Below, in pieces: positions 4,193 through 55,415 of a stretch of 64,000 nt of DNA. Location: positions 62,001-126,000 of the forward strand of contig JACPOC010000025.1 of assembly GCA_016185125.1 (NCBI GenBank). Reading direction: 5' to 3'. The number at the start of each line of letters is the position of its first letter. Position 1 is the first letter of the stretch. Both the position numbers and the translations under genes were made by a program. This stretch comes from Bacteroidota bacterium. GTDB taxonomy: Bacteria > Bacteroidota > Bacteroidia > B-17B0 > Aurantibacillaceae. The notes below the pieces were generated by a model. That model saw nothing but the letters and a program-made list of their open reading frames with translations. It was not told where the DNA came from and ran no database searches.

Positions 4193-5296
4193 TCAGCGTT
4201 TGTTTGCCTCTTTGATATAGGCATCCAATGCGCCTGACATACTGGGATTTTTAGGATTAGGGGCAAATATATCGAGCCTGTAACCCATTTCTTTTACCAT
4301 TTGCGCGGCCGTATGGCCAAACGCAGCAATACGGGTTGCGCCTTGCTTAAAGTTTGGGAAATTAGCTTTTAAAGATTTAATACCCGCAGGGGTAAAGAAA
4401 ACCAAAATGTCAAATTCTGAAAGGGATTTCATGTCGCTAAGATCAGCGCTTACAGTTTTATAAAAAATTCCTTTGGTGTAATTCAGTTTTAATTCATCTA
4501 AAAATTCAACAATTTGTTCTTTATGTACATCACTAACCGGCAATAAAAACTTTTCATCTTTATTTTTTCTGATAACATCTACAAGATCAAGCATTGTACC
4601 TTGGCCAAAAAATATTTTGCGCTTACGGTACTGTATGTATTTTTGCAAATAATAAGCTGTTTGTTCGTTAATGCAGAAGTACTTCATTCCTTCCGGCACT
4701 GTAACGCGCATTTCATTACACATTTTAAAATAATGATCTACTGAAAGTTTACTGGTTAAAATAACGGCACCATGCTCTAAAATATCAATACGCTGAGCCC
4801 TGAAATCTTGTGAGGTTAACCCTTCAACCTTTATAAACTGCCTGAAATTTAAACTCAGGTTATGTTTGCGAGCCATATCAAAATATGGGTTTTTATCAGT
4901 ATCAACAGGCTTTGGCTGAGATATAAGCAGGGTTTTAACTTTAGTTTTTGGCAAATTACTAACTTCAATTATTGGTGGCGGAGGCAGAGTTAAAAGTGCT
5001 TTTTTTGAAGATTTACGAGTGCGTTTAACAGGTAAAGCAAATTCAGCGCTTGGGGCAATAACTTTATTTACTATTTGCTTTTTTTGTTTGGTTATTTTTT
5101 CGGTAGGTGCCTTAACCGATTTTGGTTTAAATTGCTTAATAGTGGCTTTTTTAGCAAGTTTCTTTTTTTTCTTTTTAGGAAAAGTTTTAACCGCGGCCTT
5201 TTTGCTTTTAGATGGAGCGTGCTTTAATTTTATTTTCGATTTACCGGCGGGGTGCTTTACCGCAGCTTTCTTAGCCATCTTTTTTTTTGCTGCCAT
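4193..5296 (-). CDS. hemD: uroporphyrinogen-III synthase with long basic N-terminal tail
   Basis: Converts hydroxymethylbilane to uroporphyrinogen III in tetrapyrrole synthesis. The C-terminal 260 residues are HemD-like: VKTLLISQPKP at the first strand, GAVILTSKLSVDHYF, then ILVFFTPAGIKSL and RIAAFGHTAAQMVKEMGY. The first 100 or so residues are a separate low-complexity tail rich in Lys, Ala and Pro, like histone H1 tails. The ATG at 5296 is preferred over a TTG two codons upstream. It ends a leftward run mutY-YceI-DUF5777-DUF4271-hemD. The catalytic domain call is firm; the tail's role is unknown. Confidence 0.85.
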   Translation of the reverse strand: MAAKKKMAKKAAVKHPAGKSKIKLKHAPSKSKKAAVKTFPKKKKKKLAKKATIKQFKPKSVKAPTEKITKQKKQIVNKVIAPSAEFALPVKRTRKSSKKALLTLPPPPIIEVSNLPKTKVKTLLISQPKPVDTDKNPYFDMARKHNLSLNFRQFIKVEGLTSQDFRAQRIDILEHGAVILTSKLSVDHYFKMCNEMRVTVPEGMKYFCINEQTAYYLQKYIQYRKRKIFFGQGTMLDLVDVIRKNKDEKFLLPVSDVHKEQIVEFLDELKLNYTKGIFYKTVSADLSDMKSLSEFDILVFFTPAGIKSLKANFPNFKQGATRIAAFGHTAAQMVKEMGYRLDIFAPNPKNPSMSGALDAYIKEANKR

Positions 5297-10220: not shown

Positions 10221-11777
10221 GTGAGTTTTGAATTAATTATTAATTCCACGCCTAACGAAGTTGTAATTGCACTATTAAACGATAAGCGTCTTGTTGAGCT
10301 TCATCGCGAAAAAAATAATTCTCAATTTGCGGTAGGTGATATTTACTTAGGCAGAGCTAAAAAGGTTATGACAGGCCTTAATGCTGCTTTTATAGATGTA
10401 GGATACGAAAAAGATGCCTTTCTGCATTACCTTGATCTTGGTCCCCAGGCAGAATCTCTTATAAAATACGTTGAGCACAGCCAAAACGGCAAACAAAACG
10501 TAAGCAACCTCATGTACTTTAAAAATGAGCCCGATATTAAAAAAGACGGCAAAATTAATGAAGTCATAAAATCGGGGCAGGCCATGCTTGTTCAGGTGGC
10601 TAAAGAACCTATTAGCGCCAAAGGACCAAGAATTACCACCGAAATTAGTTTAGCAGGAAGGTATTTAGTTTTAATGCCTTTTTCCGATAAAATTTCGGTA
10701 TCCTCAAAAATTAAAAATTACGAGGAAAAACACCGCTTAAAAGAATTAATGCAAACCATTAAACCAAAAAACTTTGGGGTAATTGTACGCACCGTTGCCG
10801 AAAATAAACCGGTAGCAGATCTTGAAAGCGATCTTAATGACCTTATTAAACGCTGGGAAGATTGTTTTAACACCCTAAAAACAGCCCAGCCTCCTTTACG
10901 CTTATTAGGCGAGGTGGATAGAAGTAACGCTATTTTACGCGATTTTTTAAACGCTTCGTTTAACGCCATTCATGTTAGCGATAGTAAATTGTACGAAGAT
11001 CTTAAATTCTACATGCAATCCATTGCGCCCGATAGAATTGATATTTTAAAATTATACAACGGTAAACTTCCAATTTTTGATGCCTTTGGTGTAGAAAAAC
11101 AAATTAAAAGTTTATTCGGAAAAACTGTACACATGAAAAGCGGTGCTTATTTGGTAGTTGAACATACCGAAGCCCTGCACGTATTTGATGTAAATAGCGG
11201 AAACCGCGCCAAGAGCGACAGTACCCAAGAACAGAACGCCATGGATGTTAACATGGAGGCCGCTAAAGAAGTGGCGCGCCAGTTAAAACTGCGCGATATG
11301 GGCGGCATTATTGTGGTTGATTTTATTGATTTACACAGTCCCGAAAACCGTAAGCTTTTGTTTGATAAGCTGAAGGAAGAAATGAAAAGTGATAGGGCAA
11401 AGCATAACATTTTGCCGCCAAGTAAATTTGGCCTTATTCAAATTACCCGTCAGCGTTTACGCCCCGAAGTTAATGTAGAAGTTCTTGAAACCTGCGCCAG
11501 TTGCGGCGGAACAGGAAAAGTACAACCAAGTTTATTATTTGTAGATCAGATTGAAAATACTTTACGTTTTATTATTAAAGAACAAAACGAAAAGAAAATT
11601 ACACTCAATGTGCATCCTTATATTGAAGCCTATATTTTACAAGGAGGCATGTTCCGTAACCGCCAGTGGAAATGGTATTACGAACATAAGCAATGGGTAA
11701 AAGTTCAGCCAATGAACAGTTACGCCTTTATGGAATTTAAATTTTTGAATAAAGACGGAGATGAGATTGTGGTGTAA
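10221..11777 (+). CDS. rng: ribonuclease E/G family protein (RNase G)
   Basis: Endoribonuclease that processes rRNA and mRNA. The 518-aa length and lack of a C-terminal scaffold fit RNase G. Visible parts are the S1 domain (GDIYLGRAKKVMTGLNAAFI, about 40-59), the catalytic region (VFDVNSGNRAK and GGIIVVDFIDLHSPENRK) and the zinc-link cysteines in CASCGGTGKV. Start is GTG. It stands downstream of HU, TPR and COX24, an order kept in many Bacteroidota. Confidence 0.93.
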   Translation: MSFELIINSTPNEVVIALLNDKRLVELHREKNNSQFAVGDIYLGRAKKVMTGLNAAFIDVGYEKDAFLHYLDLGPQAESLIKYVEHSQNGKQNVSNLMYFKNEPDIKKDGKINEVIKSGQAMLVQVAKEPISAKGPRITTEISLAGRYLVLMPFSDKISVSSKIKNYEEKHRLKELMQTIKPKNFGVIVRTVAENKPVADLESDLNDLIKRWEDCFNTLKTAQPPLRLLGEVDRSNAILRDFLNASFNAIHVSDSKLYEDLKFYMQSIAPDRIDILKLYNGKLPIFDAFGVEKQIKSLFGKTVHMKSGAYLVVEHTEALHVFDVNSGNRAKSDSTQEQNAMDVNMEAAKEVARQLKLRDMGGIIVVDFIDLHSPENRKLLFDKLKEEMKSDRAKHNILPPSKFGLIQITRQRLRPEVNVEVLETCASCGGTGKVQPSLLFVDQIENTLRFIIKEQNEKKITLNVHPYIEAYILQGGMFRNRQWKWYYEHKQWVKVQPMNSYAFMEFKFLNKDGDEIVV

Positions 11778-11831
11778 CCTTTTATAGGTTTTTTGAAGAA
11801 GAGGTTTTCTCAAAAGCCTGAGTTTGTCGTC

Positions 11832-11852
11832 ATTCTGAACTTATTTCAGAAT
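11832..11852. repeat. REP-like hairpin
   Basis: A perfect 8-bp inverted repeat, ATTCTGAA / TTCAGAAT, with a 5-base loop, preceded by GTC. It resembles a short palindromic repeat that I recall as recurrent between genes in many Bacteroidota (the GTCATnCTGAACTT type). It sits 54 bases after the rng stop and may act as a 3' stabiliser or terminator. Copy number elsewhere in the genome cannot be seen here. Confidence 0.55.
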
Positions 11853-11883
11853 CAGTTTAGCACAGGCCTTCAGCATCTGCTCT

Positions 11884-12329
11884 GCGTTGTTTAGCTCAAA
11901 CTAAGCGTTGTTTAGTTCAAACCAAGCGTTGTTTGGCCTCCAAAGCCAAACTTTTGTTGGGAACACCCCAACCTTTAGCCTTTTTACCCCGCATTTTGGG
12001 CGCTGTTACTAAAATTTTAACCCGCGCACCTAAAATTTTAATGCTGCTGCCTAAACAGCGGGTGTTTTTACCTAAACGCCGCAGTATAAACAAGCGTTGT
12101 TTAGCTCAAACCAAGCGTTGTTTGGCCGTGCAAGCCAAACTTTTAGTGGGAACACCCCAACCTTTAGCCTTTTTACCCCGCATTTTGGGCGCTGTTACTA
12201 AAATTTGAACCCGCGCACCTAAAATTTTAATGCTGCTGCCTAAACAGCGGGTGTTTTTACCTAAACGCCGCAGTATAAACAAGCGTTGTTTAGTTCAAAC
12301 CAAGCGTTGTTCGGCCGTGCAAGCCAAAA
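11884..12329. repeat. 189-bp tandem repeat, two full copies plus partials
   Basis: Two complete units (11903-12091 and 12092-12280) and the first 49 bases of a third (12281-12329) repeat with a period of exactly 189 bases and only a few substitutions. A further 19-20-base piece (GCGTTGTTTAGCTCAAAC) precedes unit 1. Each unit holds several dyads: GTTTGGC-N7-GCCAAAC, GTTGGG-N5-CCCAAC (weaker in unit 2), two copies of the palindrome TAAAATTTTA, and ACCCGC paired with GCGGGT about 30 bases on. One frame stays open through unit 1 (start 11933) but hits TGA in unit 2 at a single-base difference, so I do not call a gene. The rest of the 885-base gap holds the hairpin at 11832 and a gene remnant at 12473. 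Confidence 0.85.
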
Positions 12330-12472
12330 TTTTACCATACACACCCAAACACCCGGCTTTTATGCGCAAAAAAATTAACAAACATTAGTGTTTATCTTGC
12401 TTTTATTATATATTTACTATATAAACGCATGAAGCGGTGATTGAATTTTAATTCTATCTGATACAAATATAG

Positions 12473-12583
12473 CGTAGAACTCTTGAAAAACTAGAAGAAG
12501 CGTATTTATATATTTTTCAGCTGGAAGAGAAACTAAACTTGATGGCTGAAAAAATAAATAAATTAGAACAAAAACAAAATTAA
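12473..12583 (+). pseudogene. remnant of a coiled-coil C-terminus
   Basis: Directly after an in-frame TAG, 36 codons read RRTLEKLEEAYLYIFQLEEK and on through MAEKINKLEQKQN to a TAA. This heptad pattern resembles the coiled-coil C-terminus of Bacteroidota tail-fibre-like or intramolecular-chaperone proteins. There is no plausible start codon before the coiled coil, so it looks like the decayed tail of a lost gene. The family assignment is from memory and weak. Confidence 0.35.
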
Positions 12584-12662
12584 CCACCTGTGATAGCGAT
12601 ATGCCTATTTTTTTATCAGCAAAAGCAATCTCTAAATCGTTCTACATTTAACACCAAACACA

Positions 12663-14051
12663 ATGAAAAAACTCCTACTCATCATTAGCCTATTTGCACT
12701 TACTGCAAATGCCCAATACACCAAGTTGTTTGATTTTTCAACCACCGATGGTTACTTTCCCTACGGTTCCTTAGTAAGCGATGGCACCTATTTGTATGGC
12801 GTTACCTTCCAAGGCGGCACTGGTAACTATGGCACGGTATTTAAACTGAAAACAGATGGCACGGGTTACACAGTGCTGCACCACTTTTTGGGAGGAACAG
12901 ATGGCGGCAATAGCCGCAGTTCCCTTATATACGATGGCGCCTTCCTGTACGGTACAACCGCAACCACTGTATTTAAATTAAAAACAGACGGCACAAACTA
13001 TAGTGTATTGCATAATTTTACAGGCAGCCCAGATGGCAGTGTAAGTTACAGCTCTTTATACAACGACGGAACTTACCTTTATGGTACATGTGTTTCCGGC
13101 GGCAGCGTAACCGCTAACCCGGGCGGAACCGTATTTAAAATTAAACCGGATGGCACTAATTATTTAACCATACACTCCTTTACCGCTAATGGTGTTATGC
13201 TATCTACTCCATCCACCCCATACGCGGGTGTAACCAGCGATGGCACCTACCTTTATGGCACATTATTTTTTGGAGACCAAATTAGTGGGCACATGGCTTC
13301 CATCTATAAGCTTATGCCCGATGGTAGTAATTTCAGTACCATCTCCTGTAGCAATAGTACTTATACCGGTGTTGCCCCTCAAGGCGATTTAACCTACGAT
13401 GGCACTTACTTATATGGTACTTTAACTCAAGGCGGAGCCTTTAATGAAGGGGCATTATTTAAAGTAAAACCTGATGGTAGTGGACTTACTAAACTTTTTG
13501 ATTTTAATTATAATAATAATAATAATGGTTTAAGTCCTGTGGGTAGTTTAGTTATTGTTGGAAATTATTTATATGGTTTAACATATGCTAGCACTATATA
13601 TAGAATAAAGCCTGATGGTACCGGCTTTATGGTTTTATATAATTTTTCTGGGAGCAATGGCGATACACCCTATGGTTCTTTAATAAGCGATGGTACCTAC
13701 CTATATGGAATGACAAATTCAGGTGGAACAAACAATAAAGGAGTAATTTTTAAATATAATTTTACTACCGTGGGCAGCAATGAATTAAAACCCGACAACT
13801 ATCGGGATAAAAACTTTAAAATATATCCCAATCCCGTCACAGATGTTTTAAGGATAGAAAGTGAAAATCAAAATATAACAGAGGGTCTGGAATATAAACT
13901 GTTCACTATTGTAGGGCAGGTAGTGGTTAGCGCCAAAGTAAAAGAGCATAATATGCCCACAATAAATCTAAAGGAGCTGCCTACGGGTATTTATTTTATA
14001 CGATTTAATTACAAGGGTCAATTAGTAACCAAAAAAATCATAAAAGAGTAA
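12663..14051 (+). CDS. T9SS-secreted GloVer-repeat protein
   Basis: A 462-aa exported protein with signal peptide MKKLLLIISLFALTANAQ, then about eight repeats of roughly 40-50 residues of the form SDGTYLYGVTFQGGTGNYGTV followed by FKLKTDGTGYTVLHHF, the tandem GloVer pattern, probably a propeller-like fold. The C-terminal 75 residues are a type A sorting domain (FKIYPNPVTDVLRIE, LPTGIYFIRF, KKIIKE), so it is exported by T9SS and cleaved or anchored at the surface. Function is unknown. A near-consensus -7 box (TACATTTA) lies just upstream. Confidence 0.88.
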   Translation: MKKLLLIISLFALTANAQYTKLFDFSTTDGYFPYGSLVSDGTYLYGVTFQGGTGNYGTVFKLKTDGTGYTVLHHFLGGTDGGNSRSSLIYDGAFLYGTTATTVFKLKTDGTNYSVLHNFTGSPDGSVSYSSLYNDGTYLYGTCVSGGSVTANPGGTVFKIKPDGTNYLTIHSFTANGVMLSTPSTPYAGVTSDGTYLYGTLFFGDQISGHMASIYKLMPDGSNFSTISCSNSTYTGVAPQGDLTYDGTYLYGTLTQGGAFNEGALFKVKPDGSGLTKLFDFNYNNNNNGLSPVGSLVIVGNYLYGLTYASTIYRIKPDGTGFMVLYNFSGSNGDTPYGSLISDGTYLYGMTNSGGTNNKGVIFKYNFTTVGSNELKPDNYRDKNFKIYPNPVTDVLRIESENQNITEGLEYKLFTIVGQVVVSAKVKEHNMPTINLKELPTGIYFIRFNYKGQLVTKKIIKE

Positions 14052-27925: not shown

Positions 27926-28213
27926 GATAGAGACTAAGGTTTTCTCGATGCAGACGATGGTTTTCTCGATGCAGACATAGGTTTTCTCGATACAAAAGAT
28001 GTGCTTCTCGATACAAAAGACGACCTTCTCTATTCAGATGATGCTTGTCTCTATCAAGACGATGGCTTTCTTGATACAGAAGATGGTTAGCTCTATCGAG
28101 ACGATGGTTTTCTCGATACAGACGAAGGTTAGCTCTATCGAGACGATGGGCTTCTATATAAAGGCTCTTCTCTATACAGATGATGGTTGTTTCTATCGAA
28201 AAAGTGATTTTTC
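27926..28213. repeat. 21-bp tandem repeat array (minisatellite)
   Basis: Eleven consecutive units keep an exact 21-base period from 27926 to 28156, each close to GATACAGACGATGGTTTTCT plus C. A shortened 16-base unit (28157-28172) and two more diverged units follow to about 28213; a weakly similar stretch precedes it from about 27904. Because 21 is a multiple of 3, open frames run through it on both strands, with heptads such as FSIQKTT on plus and LYRENLC on minus. These have no sound starts or family and I do not call them genes. The remaining 100 bases to the next gene hold nothing clear. Confidence 0.88.
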
Positions 28214-28321: not shown

Positions 28322-29653
28322 TTGAAAAAAGTCATTATCTTATTTTTAATTAGCGTATCATTTGTAATACATTCTCAACAGTTGGATTGGATGCAAACTG
28401 CCCATTATGAATGCACAACTGATCCTCAAGGAATGGATGTCGATATATTCGGTAATATCTATATCTGTGGTAATTATGGCATTTCTCCCGGAGGAAACTC
28501 CAGCGGAACTAATGGTTATTTTATACAAAAGTATTCTCCGGCAGGCACATTGATGTGGGCAGATACCTCTTCCGGAGAGTCTTGGGGTGTAACGGGTCGC
28601 GGAGGCGTTGTGTGCGACCCAATTGGTAACGCTTATTTTTCCGTACGAGTAATGGGGAGTGATAGTATTCGGATAGGTAATTTGAAATATCCACCTAGCA
28701 AAATGTACATTATTAAATATAATCCTGGGGGACAAATAATTTGGGTGAAAAGTGAAGTACTCGATCCGTATGGCATGGCGAGAGATGCGCAGGGATTTAT
28801 CTATGTGACAGGTAGCGGTTTTACAAATAAGTACGACCAAATGGGAAATCTGCAGATGACAATTCCCGACGGCTCAACCTATATTTCAATAGATGAACTA
28901 GGGAATATTCATTTGCCGGGGCGCAAATATAGCGCCACAGGTGCCCAAATATGGATTAACTCAGCGTATTATTCATCTGTTATTGCAGCAGATTCGATTG
29001 GAAATACTTACATGTCGAATTTGGCAAGTTGGGGGAATTATAGCTATTTAACAAAGGTAAGCCCCACTGGACAATATTTATGGGGTATTACAGTGCCTTA
29101 TCATAACGGTGGAGCGATAAAGTGTGATAAAAATGGTAATGTTTATGTTACTGGGGAAGATAGTACCGGCATGTTGATTACTAAATATGACAGTAATGGT
29201 AATCTTCAATGGAACTGGCATAAGGCTAATCCTGTTTTAGGTAGCGTTTCTCCTCATTATTATTTTAGTGCTAATGGGGATATCAATTTATATAATGGCA
29301 ACGTTTATTTTTCAGGCTTAAAAAACATGCAGTGTATGGAAACCTTTCTGGTTAAATTAACTGAGCCGGGCTCTACTACTTCACTTTATGAGCATAAGTT
29401 GGATTACTCGATAACTATTTCGCCAAACCCATCCTCCTCCGAATTTTTAATTTCTTTTAAGACTCTGGGCAAGGAATCGCTTACTATAAAAGTTATGGAT
29501 GCGTTGGGTAAATTGCTTTATACAAAAGGGGAAATTTTATTTACCCACCATTTAAAAGAAATTCTTGATTTGAGCCATATTCCAAAAGGCATTTACTTTG
29601 TGCAAATCAATACGGGTAAGGTAAGTGAGGTAAGGAAGATAGTGCTGGAGTAA
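28322..29653 (+). CDS. T9SS-secreted beta-propeller (SBBP-like) protein
   Basis: A 443-aa exported protein: signal peptide KKVIILFLISVSFVIHSQ, then repeats with the pattern DIFGNIYICGNYG, DPIGNAYFSVRV, DAQGFIYVTGSGF, DKNGNVYVTGEDS, typical of SBBP-type propellers. The C-terminus is a type A T9SS sorting domain (SITISPNPSSSEFLISF, IPKGIYFVQINTG, RKIVLE). Start is TTG, with no other suitable codon. Surface location is expected; substrate is unknown. Confidence 0.87.
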   Translation: MKKVIILFLISVSFVIHSQQLDWMQTAHYECTTDPQGMDVDIFGNIYICGNYGISPGGNSSGTNGYFIQKYSPAGTLMWADTSSGESWGVTGRGGVVCDPIGNAYFSVRVMGSDSIRIGNLKYPPSKMYIIKYNPGGQIIWVKSEVLDPYGMARDAQGFIYVTGSGFTNKYDQMGNLQMTIPDGSTYISIDELGNIHLPGRKYSATGAQIWINSAYYSSVIAADSIGNTYMSNLASWGNYSYLTKVSPTGQYLWGITVPYHNGGAIKCDKNGNVYVTGEDSTGMLITKYDSNGNLQWNWHKANPVLGSVSPHYYFSANGDINLYNGNVYFSGLKNMQCMETFLVKLTEPGSTTSLYEHKLDYSITISPNPSSSEFLISFKTLGKESLTIKVMDALGKLLYTKGEILFTHHLKEILDLSHIPKGIYFVQINTGKVSEVRKIVLE

Positions 29654-33142: not shown

Positions 33143-34981
33143 ATGGCAAAACGCGGTGGCAGAGGGGCCGGACCCACAAATTCAGATACAGATGAGCTTC
33201 CTAAGGCTAAATTGAGCTGGGTAAATCTGAAAAAATCATTGCGTTTGTTTTCTTACTTAAAAAGGCAAAAATGGGCTTTTTTAATGGGAATGATGTTTTT
33301 AATAGGAACCGCGGGCATTGGCCTGTTATTTCCCGTAAAAGCAGGAGCCTTATTTGGCTTTTTTGACAATAATCCCGATCATTTAGCGCAAAACCAGGAT
33401 AAATTAGCCCATTTAGGAATTACGCTCTTGGTAATTTTATTGATTCAGGGCGTATTTTCTTTTGGTAGAGTTTACTTTTTTACTCTTGTTACCGAAAATA
33501 TTTTACAAGGCCTGCGCAATGATACTTTTAAGAGGCTGATTCAAATGCCTATGGGTTTCTTTTCTAAAAACCAGGTAACGGAATTAAGCAGCCGCATGGC
33601 AACAGATATAAATGTAATTTCTGAAGCATTTACAATTAATATAGCGGAACTGATCCGTCAAACAATTGTGGGCGTGGGCGGATTAATTTTAATGGTGGTG
33701 CTTACCAAATGGGAAATTGCAAAATGGTTTGTTTTTATTATTCCGCCACTAACTATTGTATCTATTTTATTCGCCAAGAAAATAAGGAAATATTCAAAAA
33801 GCTTCCAAGATAAAATTGCAGAAGCAAGCGTTATTGTTGGAGAAGTACTTTCAGGAATTTCAAACGTAAAAACCTTTACCAACGAAGCTTATGAAATAAA
33901 ACGTTATACTGAAAAAACAACCGACATTAAAAATTTTGGATTTAAATACGGGGTTTTTCGAGGTACTTTTTTTGCTTTTGTAATTACTTTCGTTTTCGGA
34001 ACCGTGTTTTTTATTCTTTACATCATGGTGCAAATGGTAATGAATAACCGTTTAACCTCCGAGCAATTTGGCCAGTTTTTAATGCTTGCGCTTTTTGTGG
34101 CCGGCTCTTTAGGAGGTTTGCCGGAGCAAATTGCTTCCATACAACGCGCATTGGGTGCCACCGACAGAGTGTTTGAATTAATTGACAGCGATATTGAAAA
34201 CATTGAATTTTTAAGTGATAATAGTCCGGCTAAACATTCAAAAGGAGAAATTGAATTTAAAAACGTATCGTTCAATTATCCTACTCGTCCTGATTTTGAA
34301 GTTTTAAAATCTATTTCCTTTAAAGCAAACTCAGGCGAAACTGTAGCCTTAGTTGGAAGCAGCGGCTCCGGCAAATCAACCATTGCTAGTTTAATACTTC
34401 GGTTTTATGATCCGCAATTGGGAAGTATAGAAGTAGACGGAGTAAACAGCAAAGACCTTCAGCTTACGGAGCTTCGCAGACAAATTGCAATTGTGCCCCA
34501 GGATGTTATTTTATTTGCAGGAAGTATTAAAGATAATATTGCCTATGGTAAGCCCAATGCCACTGATGCTGAAATTGAAGAAGCTGCAAAAAAAGCAAAC
34601 GCCTATGATTTTATTATTTCTTTCCCTGATAAATTTTTAACGCTTGTAGGAGAACGAGGCATTCAGCTTTCGGGTGGACAAAGACAACGAATTGCTATTG
34701 CGCGTGCGGTATTAAAGAATCCAAGCATTTTAATTTTAGATGAAGCCACCAGTAGTTTAGACAGCGAAAGCGAGCATTTGGTGCAGGAAGCTTTAGATAA
34801 ACTCATGGTAGGGAGAACAAGTATTGTGATTGCGCATCGTTTATCTACCATTCGCAACGCCGATAAAATTGTGGTTCTTCAAAAAGGAGTAGTTCAGGAA
34901 AGCGGCACGCATCAACAATTGATGTTAAATAACGAAGGCTTGTATCAGAAATTAAATAAAATGCAGTTTGAGTTGAGTTAA
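33143..34981 (+). CDS. ABC transporter, fused permease and ATPase (exporter)
   Basis: A 612-aa half-transporter that should act as a dimer in the inner membrane. A six-helix domain (about residues 50-330) precedes the nucleotide-binding domain: Walker A VGSSGSGKST, Q-loop VPQDVILFAG, signature LSGGQRQRIAIARA, Walker B ILILDEATSSLD and the H-loop IVIAHRLST. It belongs to the MsbA/multidrug/lipid exporter group; the substrate is not known. Its stop overlaps the stop of the HAD gene on the other strand. Confidence 0.93.
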   Translation: MAKRGGRGAGPTNSDTDELPKAKLSWVNLKKSLRLFSYLKRQKWAFLMGMMFLIGTAGIGLLFPVKAGALFGFFDNNPDHLAQNQDKLAHLGITLLVILLIQGVFSFGRVYFFTLVTENILQGLRNDTFKRLIQMPMGFFSKNQVTELSSRMATDINVISEAFTINIAELIRQTIVGVGGLILMVVLTKWEIAKWFVFIIPPLTIVSILFAKKIRKYSKSFQDKIAEASVIVGEVLSGISNVKTFTNEAYEIKRYTEKTTDIKNFGFKYGVFRGTFFAFVITFVFGTVFFILYIMVQMVMNNRLTSEQFGQFLMLALFVAGSLGGLPEQIASIQRALGATDRVFELIDSDIENIEFLSDNSPAKHSKGEIEFKNVSFNYPTRPDFEVLKSISFKANSGETVALVGSSGSGKSTIASLILRFYDPQLGSIEVDGVNSKDLQLTELRRQIAIVPQDVILFAGSIKDNIAYGKPNATDAEIEEAAKKANAYDFIISFPDKFLTLVGERGIQLSGGQRQRIAIARAVLKNPSILILDEATSSLDSESEHLVQEALDKLMVGRTSIVIAHRLSTIRNADKIVVLQKGVVQESGTHQQLMLNNEGLYQKLNKMQFELS

Positions 34982-55151: not shown

Positions 55152-55415
55152 ATTTTAATTTTTGGTAAGAATACGATTTGAATTTTAAGGAGATTTAAGC
55201 TGAAGAAATGCTTTTAAATCATTATTAAAAAAAAGATCATAATCTTACGGGATTAATGGGTTGCAAAAGTAATATATTTTTTTGTTAATTCAAAGAAAAA
55301 ATAGCTAAAATTGCTTAAACAATGCTTAATCTGTACCTCCCTCAATCTTTTTTTATAACTTTATAGTATATAATGTTGTTAAACGGGTAAAAATTGCCTT
55401 TTAAGGATAACCAAA

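Follow-up and report, generated by a model that had tools for sequence, protein, structure and literature searches.

The window, a stretch of 64,000 nucleotides from a Bacteroidota bacterium, carries between two forward-strand genes a tandem array of short units. The array is followed by a promoter-like box and by the 3' end of a further gene. The features of this locus are as follows:

10221-11777, forward strand: upstream neighbour, an RNase E/G family gene (Pfam PF10150)
11884-12387, forward strand: array of 24 units of 21 bp, the final ones, toward the promoter-like box, degenerate (register layout, TRF, unit count)
11903-12091, forward strand: first 189-bp higher-order repeat (9 x 21 bp)
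12092-12280, forward strand: second 189-bp higher-order repeat, 96% identical to the first
12281-12333, forward strand: partial third copy, 53 bp, 89% identical to the reference copy
12262-12391, forward strand: last units and tail, 127/130 identical to a sister array elsewhere in the genome (array bodies: 66-71%)
12409-12416, forward strand: promoter-like TATATTTA box after the array tail (motif match only)
12473-12583, forward strand: 3' gene remnant, 36 codons and a stop, resembling the end of a 574-aa gene behind the sister array (local alignment)
12663-14051, forward strand: downstream neighbour with a T9SS C-terminal sorting domain (Pfam PF18962)

A 189-bp tandem repeat had been predicted here from the sequence alone, and it is real: TRF and alignment return two full copies that are 96% identical and a partial third of 53 bp (TRF: period 189, 2.3 copies, 95% matches, 11898-12334). 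The original prediction overlooked a strict 21-bp register. Laid out in lines of 21 bases, the sequence at 11884-12387 forms 24 units with zero net shift, and TRF reports a separate 21-bp period at 11884-11934. Since 189 bp is 9 x 21, the longer period is a higher-order repeat whose base unit is 21 bp. Autocorrelation is 0.81 at 189 vs 0.44 at 21 in this array and 0.87 at 210 vs 0.49 at 21 in the sister array; in both, multi-monomer blocks are more alike than their own monomers, as in the higher-order repeats of eukaryotes.

All of the inverted repeats previously named are present in the array, and the region 11700-12700 contains 4 terminator-like stem-loops vs a mean of 1.2 over 50 shuffles. 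Within single units the excess of dyads is genuine and takes the form of strand symmetry: the 21-bp register is symmetric about position 5.5 (P 0.0002 for 40 distinct units; reached by 0/5000 permutations for 19 representative units). Unit positions 1-10 make up a dyad core, YAAANNTTTR, in which a G+C-rich half may stand in for one of the two halves. Units occur in both orientations within one common register, with GCGTTGTTTA-form units being approximate reverse complements of TAAACAACGG-form units (16/21 identical). The stems noticed earlier and the TAAAATTTTA palindromes are parts of this dyad-core pattern. The accompanying claim that loops vary freely and stems stay does not hold in general, as the stems of copy 2 also change (GTTGGG to AGTGGG, TAAAATTTTA to TAAAATTTGA).

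Homologous arrays are found at three loci of the source genome (3.34 Mb, 59 contigs). The sister array begins at about 41975 of contig C32 and consists of 4.3 copies of a 210-bp higher-order repeat (10 x 21), with a 21-bp register that is unbroken across 46 units. Its body is 66-71% identical to that of the window array, and the last units and tail match at 127 of 130 positions. The third locus is a four-unit remnant on the minus strand of the same contig (29441-29520), first found by protein-level cross-match and confirmed at 72.8 bits by a sequence profile that itself includes the remnant sequence; the open frame downstream of it is presumably YggS-like.

Searches of related genomes can be used to place the family. 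All 40 genomes of the genus that were searched have some match to the remnant-inclusive profile at E <= 1, and scores range from 72.8 to 90.2 bits for the seven true copies vs 21.2 bits for the best match among the 39 other genomes. A second profile, built from other units, reached at best 21.0 bits among the other genomes of the genus. Across the class, 3 of 295 genomes, the source genome included, have a profile match at E <= 0.001, and neither of the other two (24.6 and 21.2 bits) shows an array. A 218-base array query had no match in 59 other genomes; two exact array patterns gave 0 matches in species genomes or IMG/VR and blastn of the array gave 0 against phages and plasmids, collections in which the source genome's own records are possibly absent. 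Weak profile or pattern matches in relatives were inspected by eye in part, in batches of 6, 6 and 10 loci (one, L121, was the source genome's real remnant, and one locus was seen twice), and none of those from relatives showed a 21-bp array. The RNase G loci of 29 relatives, scanned for periods of 20 to 210 bp, had none. As judged from these searches, the array family is found in the source genome and not in the sampled relatives. The possibility that had been held against the original prediction, that copies would be found only here, applies to the genome but not to the locus: all copies are confined to the source genome, where they occupy three loci.

The surroundings of the three arrays can be compared in turn. 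Behind the sister array, the tail is followed by TATATTTG, an ATG at position 4995 of the stretch that holds this locus (L009) and a run of 14 C, which is out of frame with a 574-aa open frame starting at 5069. From this arrangement, the 574-aa gene is a candidate for a phase-variable surface gene, controlled by slipped-strand variation of the C run. The 3' gene remnant in the window aligns with the end of that gene at a score of 62 (maximum 33 in 200 shuffles). The remnant array lies about 90 bp ahead of a TATATTTG box. The promoter consensus of flavobacteria is given as TAnnTTTG in one report (PMC9723704); this style of promoter and the T9SS domains point to the Bacteroidota. By these motifs, the array seems to adjoin a promoter at two of the three loci, and a promoter-side role at those two is plausible. 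Of the gene originally behind the window array only the 3' end seems to be left, and the T9SS gene at 12663 may adjoin the array through this loss. As the 3' remnant of a different gene comes after the array tail, the T9SS neighbour is possibly incidental.

Within the 21-bp register, AA/TT steps cluster at positions 2-8 and 14-17, about 10.5 bp apart, the A/T runs thus being spaced at the helical period, as in phased A-tracts. Curvature was predicted with a BMHT wedge model, an AA-only model and the De Santis model, and all values below are predictions. The mean BMHT bend per 105 bp is 126 degrees for the window array and 151 for its sister, vs a window mean of 39, and the BMHT maximum of the whole window (156.5) lies at 12103. 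The AA-only model agrees with BMHT on the curvature of the array, with one place in the window (33309) outranking it; under De Santis the excess is weaker (P 0.03 and 0.06), and five other places in the window rank above the array. Applying the same column permutation to all units lowers the BMHT value to 40 (window) and 46 (sister), and 0/400 permutations were as high as observed in either. Curvature drops as well when only the spacer columns are permuted (P 0.004 and 0.000 under BMHT, 0.07 and 0.03 under AA-only). When the substitutions between the window and sister arrays are redistributed at random, null mean curvatures are 60-82 vs 131-168 observed (BMHT P <= 0.001 and AA-only P <= 0.007, each in 8/8 comparisons). 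Synonymous recoding of a heptapeptide frame, discussed below, lowers the values to 71-95 (BMHT) and 74-98 (AA-only), with P from 0.000 to 0.013. Because both random placement of substitutions and synonymous recoding lower the predicted curvature, AA/TT phasing is, under the BMHT and AA-only models, kept beyond chance between arrays that are about 30% diverged. The suspicion of selection on structure is supported for DNA shape, in the phased AA/TT retained between diverged arrays, and not for RNA. The predicted bend extends to the promoter-like box near 12409 and falls off beyond it. Other strong peaks of predicted curvature in the window are found at 33312, which stands beside or above the array depending on the model, and at 55294.

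The window array is also one of a wider set of arrays with units of similar length:

27926-28149, no strand assigned: second 21-bp array in the window, unrelated in sequence, 10.7 copies, 72% matches (TRF)
L204:18235, L205:8560, L212:6105, L213:16351, L267:8859 and L272:4999: further 20-21 bp non-coding arrays in sampled stretches of the source genome

The second window array lies upstream of a T9SS-domain gene (28322-29653), is open for 128 aa on the minus strand and is not specially curved. Sampling covered 40 stretches of 20 kb from the source genome and 60 from five relatives, hand-chosen rather than random; together with the window and L009 this amounts to 873 kb of the source genome, and to 1.2 Mb of the relatives. 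Arrays of at least 90 bp were counted with TRF and classed as non-ORF when inside no ORF of at least 150 aa. The source genome sample contained 18 arrays, 13 of them non-ORF, and nine of these 13 have 20-21 bp units, as do none of the four non-ORF arrays in the relatives. Six of the nine come from the 40 sampled stretches, and that of L204 is covered by a 136-aa ORF. In 100 short loci of relatives (340 kb), arrays of 12, 36, 51 and 108 bp were found, coding and non-coding unsorted. Units are 21 bp long in five of the nine arrays, 20 bp in two, about 20.75 bp in one (spacings 83/104/187) and about 20.67 bp in the last (spacings 62/124/186/248, the unit being derived by dividing 62 by three). 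By-eye comparison finds the units of the nine unrelated, the window array and its sister excepted.

Two possible rules for this set were rejected. Flanking ORFs are tandem for four of the nine arrays, divergent for two and convergent for two, the left neighbour of L212 being uncertain; given these mixed contexts, with two of nine convergent, placement upstream of promoters is not a rule and a promoter role is not general. Similarly, curvature exceeds that of permuted units in three arrays (window P 0.000, sister 0.000, L205 0.010), is borderline in L212 (0.058) and shows no excess in the remaining five, so it leaves the set unexplained and what the arrays have in common is a unit length near two turns of the helix. 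A general tendency to duplicate stretches of 20-21 bp was rejected as well, because two-copy repeats outside arrays show no excess at this length. Bacterial intergenic minisatellites are mostly treated as single oddities or as typing markers. Where the arrays of one genome are unlike in sequence but agree in a unit close to two turns, the thing copied or selected would seem to be helical phase itself. A further unusual trait is the presence, in a bacterium, of higher-order repeats built from 21-bp monomers. Other non-coding arrays of the source genome include L206:10773-11181 (137-bp units, 3.0 copies) and L273:14540-14756 (95-bp units, 2.3 copies). The array-adjoining genes L205:8965-9567 and L267:9707-10309 encode 200-aa proteins that are alike by eye and have no Pfam match.

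We favour, with a probability of roughly one half, the reading that the feature is a non-coding, helically phased, curved minisatellite with a 21-bp unit, one of a lineage-specific set, to which a function can be assigned only by inference. Each unit would span two helical turns with an A/T patch per turn, so that small bends sum and some 500 bp become strongly curved. Whole units would be gained through slippage or unequal exchange, and those out of helical phase would not be retained. Where the array lies next to a promoter, the bend could offer RNA polymerase or a nucleoid protein a platform for wrapping and thereby tune the next gene. That phase rather than sequence would be kept fits both the mixed 20/21-bp spacing of the sibling arrays and the conserved curvature of the window family.

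The main rival is neutral expansion, in which slippage or unequal exchange amplified a chance sequence, the 20-21 bp length reflects the copying mechanism and nothing is selected. This is possible, if on balance unlikely. In its favour, the copies are confined to one genome, gene contexts are mixed, most sibling arrays are not specially curved and the locus is not conserved in 29 relatives. However, phased AA/TT is kept beyond random placement between arrays that are 30% diverged, and two-copy repeats outside arrays lack the 20-21 bp excess. The tail that is 127/130 identical beside a promoter-like box also speaks against neutrality, though recent conversion could explain it. Neutral growth by two-turn steps would account for the set, yet it leaves the retained phasing of the window family unexplained. 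It is rather doubtful, in our estimation, that a process measuring two helical turns, such as a DNA-bound protein filament or a step in copying or repair, builds and maintains many non-coding 20-21 bp minisatellites of mostly unrelated sequence in this lineage, some of which have been tuned to curved DNA beside promoters.

Alternatively, the units may be sites for a dimeric DNA-binding protein, with the core YAAANNTTTR presented on one helix face every two turns. Curvature could then be a by-product of a conserved dyad site. The strand symmetry about position 5.5, the two unit orientations in one register (16/21 identical as reverse complements) and the constant 21-bp spacing would all be expected of such sites, and the protein-binding array of the original prediction may be of this kind. 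The core half-sites, however, are highly variable (TAAA, CAAA, GCG, CCG), and the A/T patch of the spacer is phased too, as seen in the spacer permutations above. With sibling arrays that differ in sequence, and with no candidate for the cognate protein, we consider the explanation improbable.

A decayed coding repeat is very unlikely. One frame, with its codon start at register position 2, encodes heptapeptides of the form K/R-x-L-[A/G]-x-x-P, as 21 is divisible by three; between the arrays, synonymous and conservative changes in this frame are more frequent than expected. In the best of four comparisons (unit 2 vs c1), P is 0.007 for synonymous and 0.003 for conservative changes; in the remaining three, P is 0.06-0.41 and 0.01-0.06, respectively. 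The mirror frame on the opposite strand gives a similar but weaker signal (BLOSUM P 0.03-0.11). Internal stops interrupt the heptapeptide frame once in the window and seven times in the sister array, and the two open pieces of the array that were searched against Pfam matched no family. Two sibling arrays have higher-order spacings that are not multiples of three (83/104/187 and 62/124/248 bp), and others have 20-bp units. A coding repeat was rejected on the in-frame stops and the mirror-frame signal.

A structured RNA built on the three stems of the original prediction is scarcely credible. Folding of the window array is close to chance on the plus strand (z -1.4) and when folded as DNA (z -1.1), with 13/100 shuffles as good in each case, and is better on the minus strand (z -2.4, 1/100). 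The sister array folds well (z -5.6, 0/20 shuffles as good), but its units occur in both orientations and can pair trivially. Over six repeats, the three stems have 88, 56 and 67% of cells paired; the percentage paired is reached by 1/500 shuffles and the covariation score by 19/500. However, a change on both sides is seen in only 1/19 stem pairs, the sister array disrupts stems 2 and 3, and sliding the partners 1 or 3 columns upstream gives covariation scores higher than those of the real stems. Rfam has no match to the array at the gathering threshold. The RNA proposal was rejected because of the near-chance window fold, the broken stems and slid structures that score equally or higher. A CRISPR array was also rejected, as the units are contiguous, without unique spacers or an Rfam match.

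The further suggestion of a site used by a mobile element finds no backing at the three loci, which have no shared leader and no terminal inverted repeat; the matches between their leaders and the inverted matches from end to end both stay within the 95th percentile of 200 shuffles. The nearest systems in print, among the matches listed, are the BrickBuilt MITE (PMC4596501), A-tract periodicity (PMC3940949) and the sabA rheostat (PMC4081817). BrickBuilt of Porphyromonas gingivalis is described as a minisatellite MITE of 23-nt repeats that has 19 copies, with inverted-repeat ends and a constant leader and tail, its flanking segments having promoter activity (PMC4596501). Judged against that description, the window array is alike in being an intergenic, single-species run of short direct repeats without spacers in a member of the Bacteroidota, with a tail behind. 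It differs in its 21-bp units and higher-order repeats, and a MITE of this type was rejected because the common leader and inverted ends are absent and there are three loci rather than many copies. Phased A-tracts in prokaryotes are reported as a weak genome-wide signal tied to curvature and nucleoid-associated proteins (PMC3940949). As described there, A/T runs stand in helical phase, which they also do here, though in a tandem array with a 21-bp unit. The T-tract at the sabA promoter of Helicobacter pylori is reported as a homopolymer of variable length whose regulatory effect was shown experimentally (PMC4081817). Like it, the array described here is an intergenic repeat, seemingly beside the promoter of a candidate surface protein, and would act, as the sabA tract does, through DNA structure and axial alignment; the array is known from sequence alone.

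Among the matches listed from the open-licence literature, no title reports higher-order repeats in bacteria or prokaryotes, and no description of a set of arrays with units of about two turns was found. In eukaryotic satellite DNA, diverged monomers are grouped into longer, more similar higher-order repeats. The window and sister arrays are organized in the same way, with 9 or 10 monomers per block, but within about 0.5-1 kb of a bacterial intergenic region. Between the RNase G gene and the window array, at 11830-11855, lies a small imperfect inverted repeat (ATTCTGAA...TTCAGAAT), which we take to resemble REP-like intergenic repeats.
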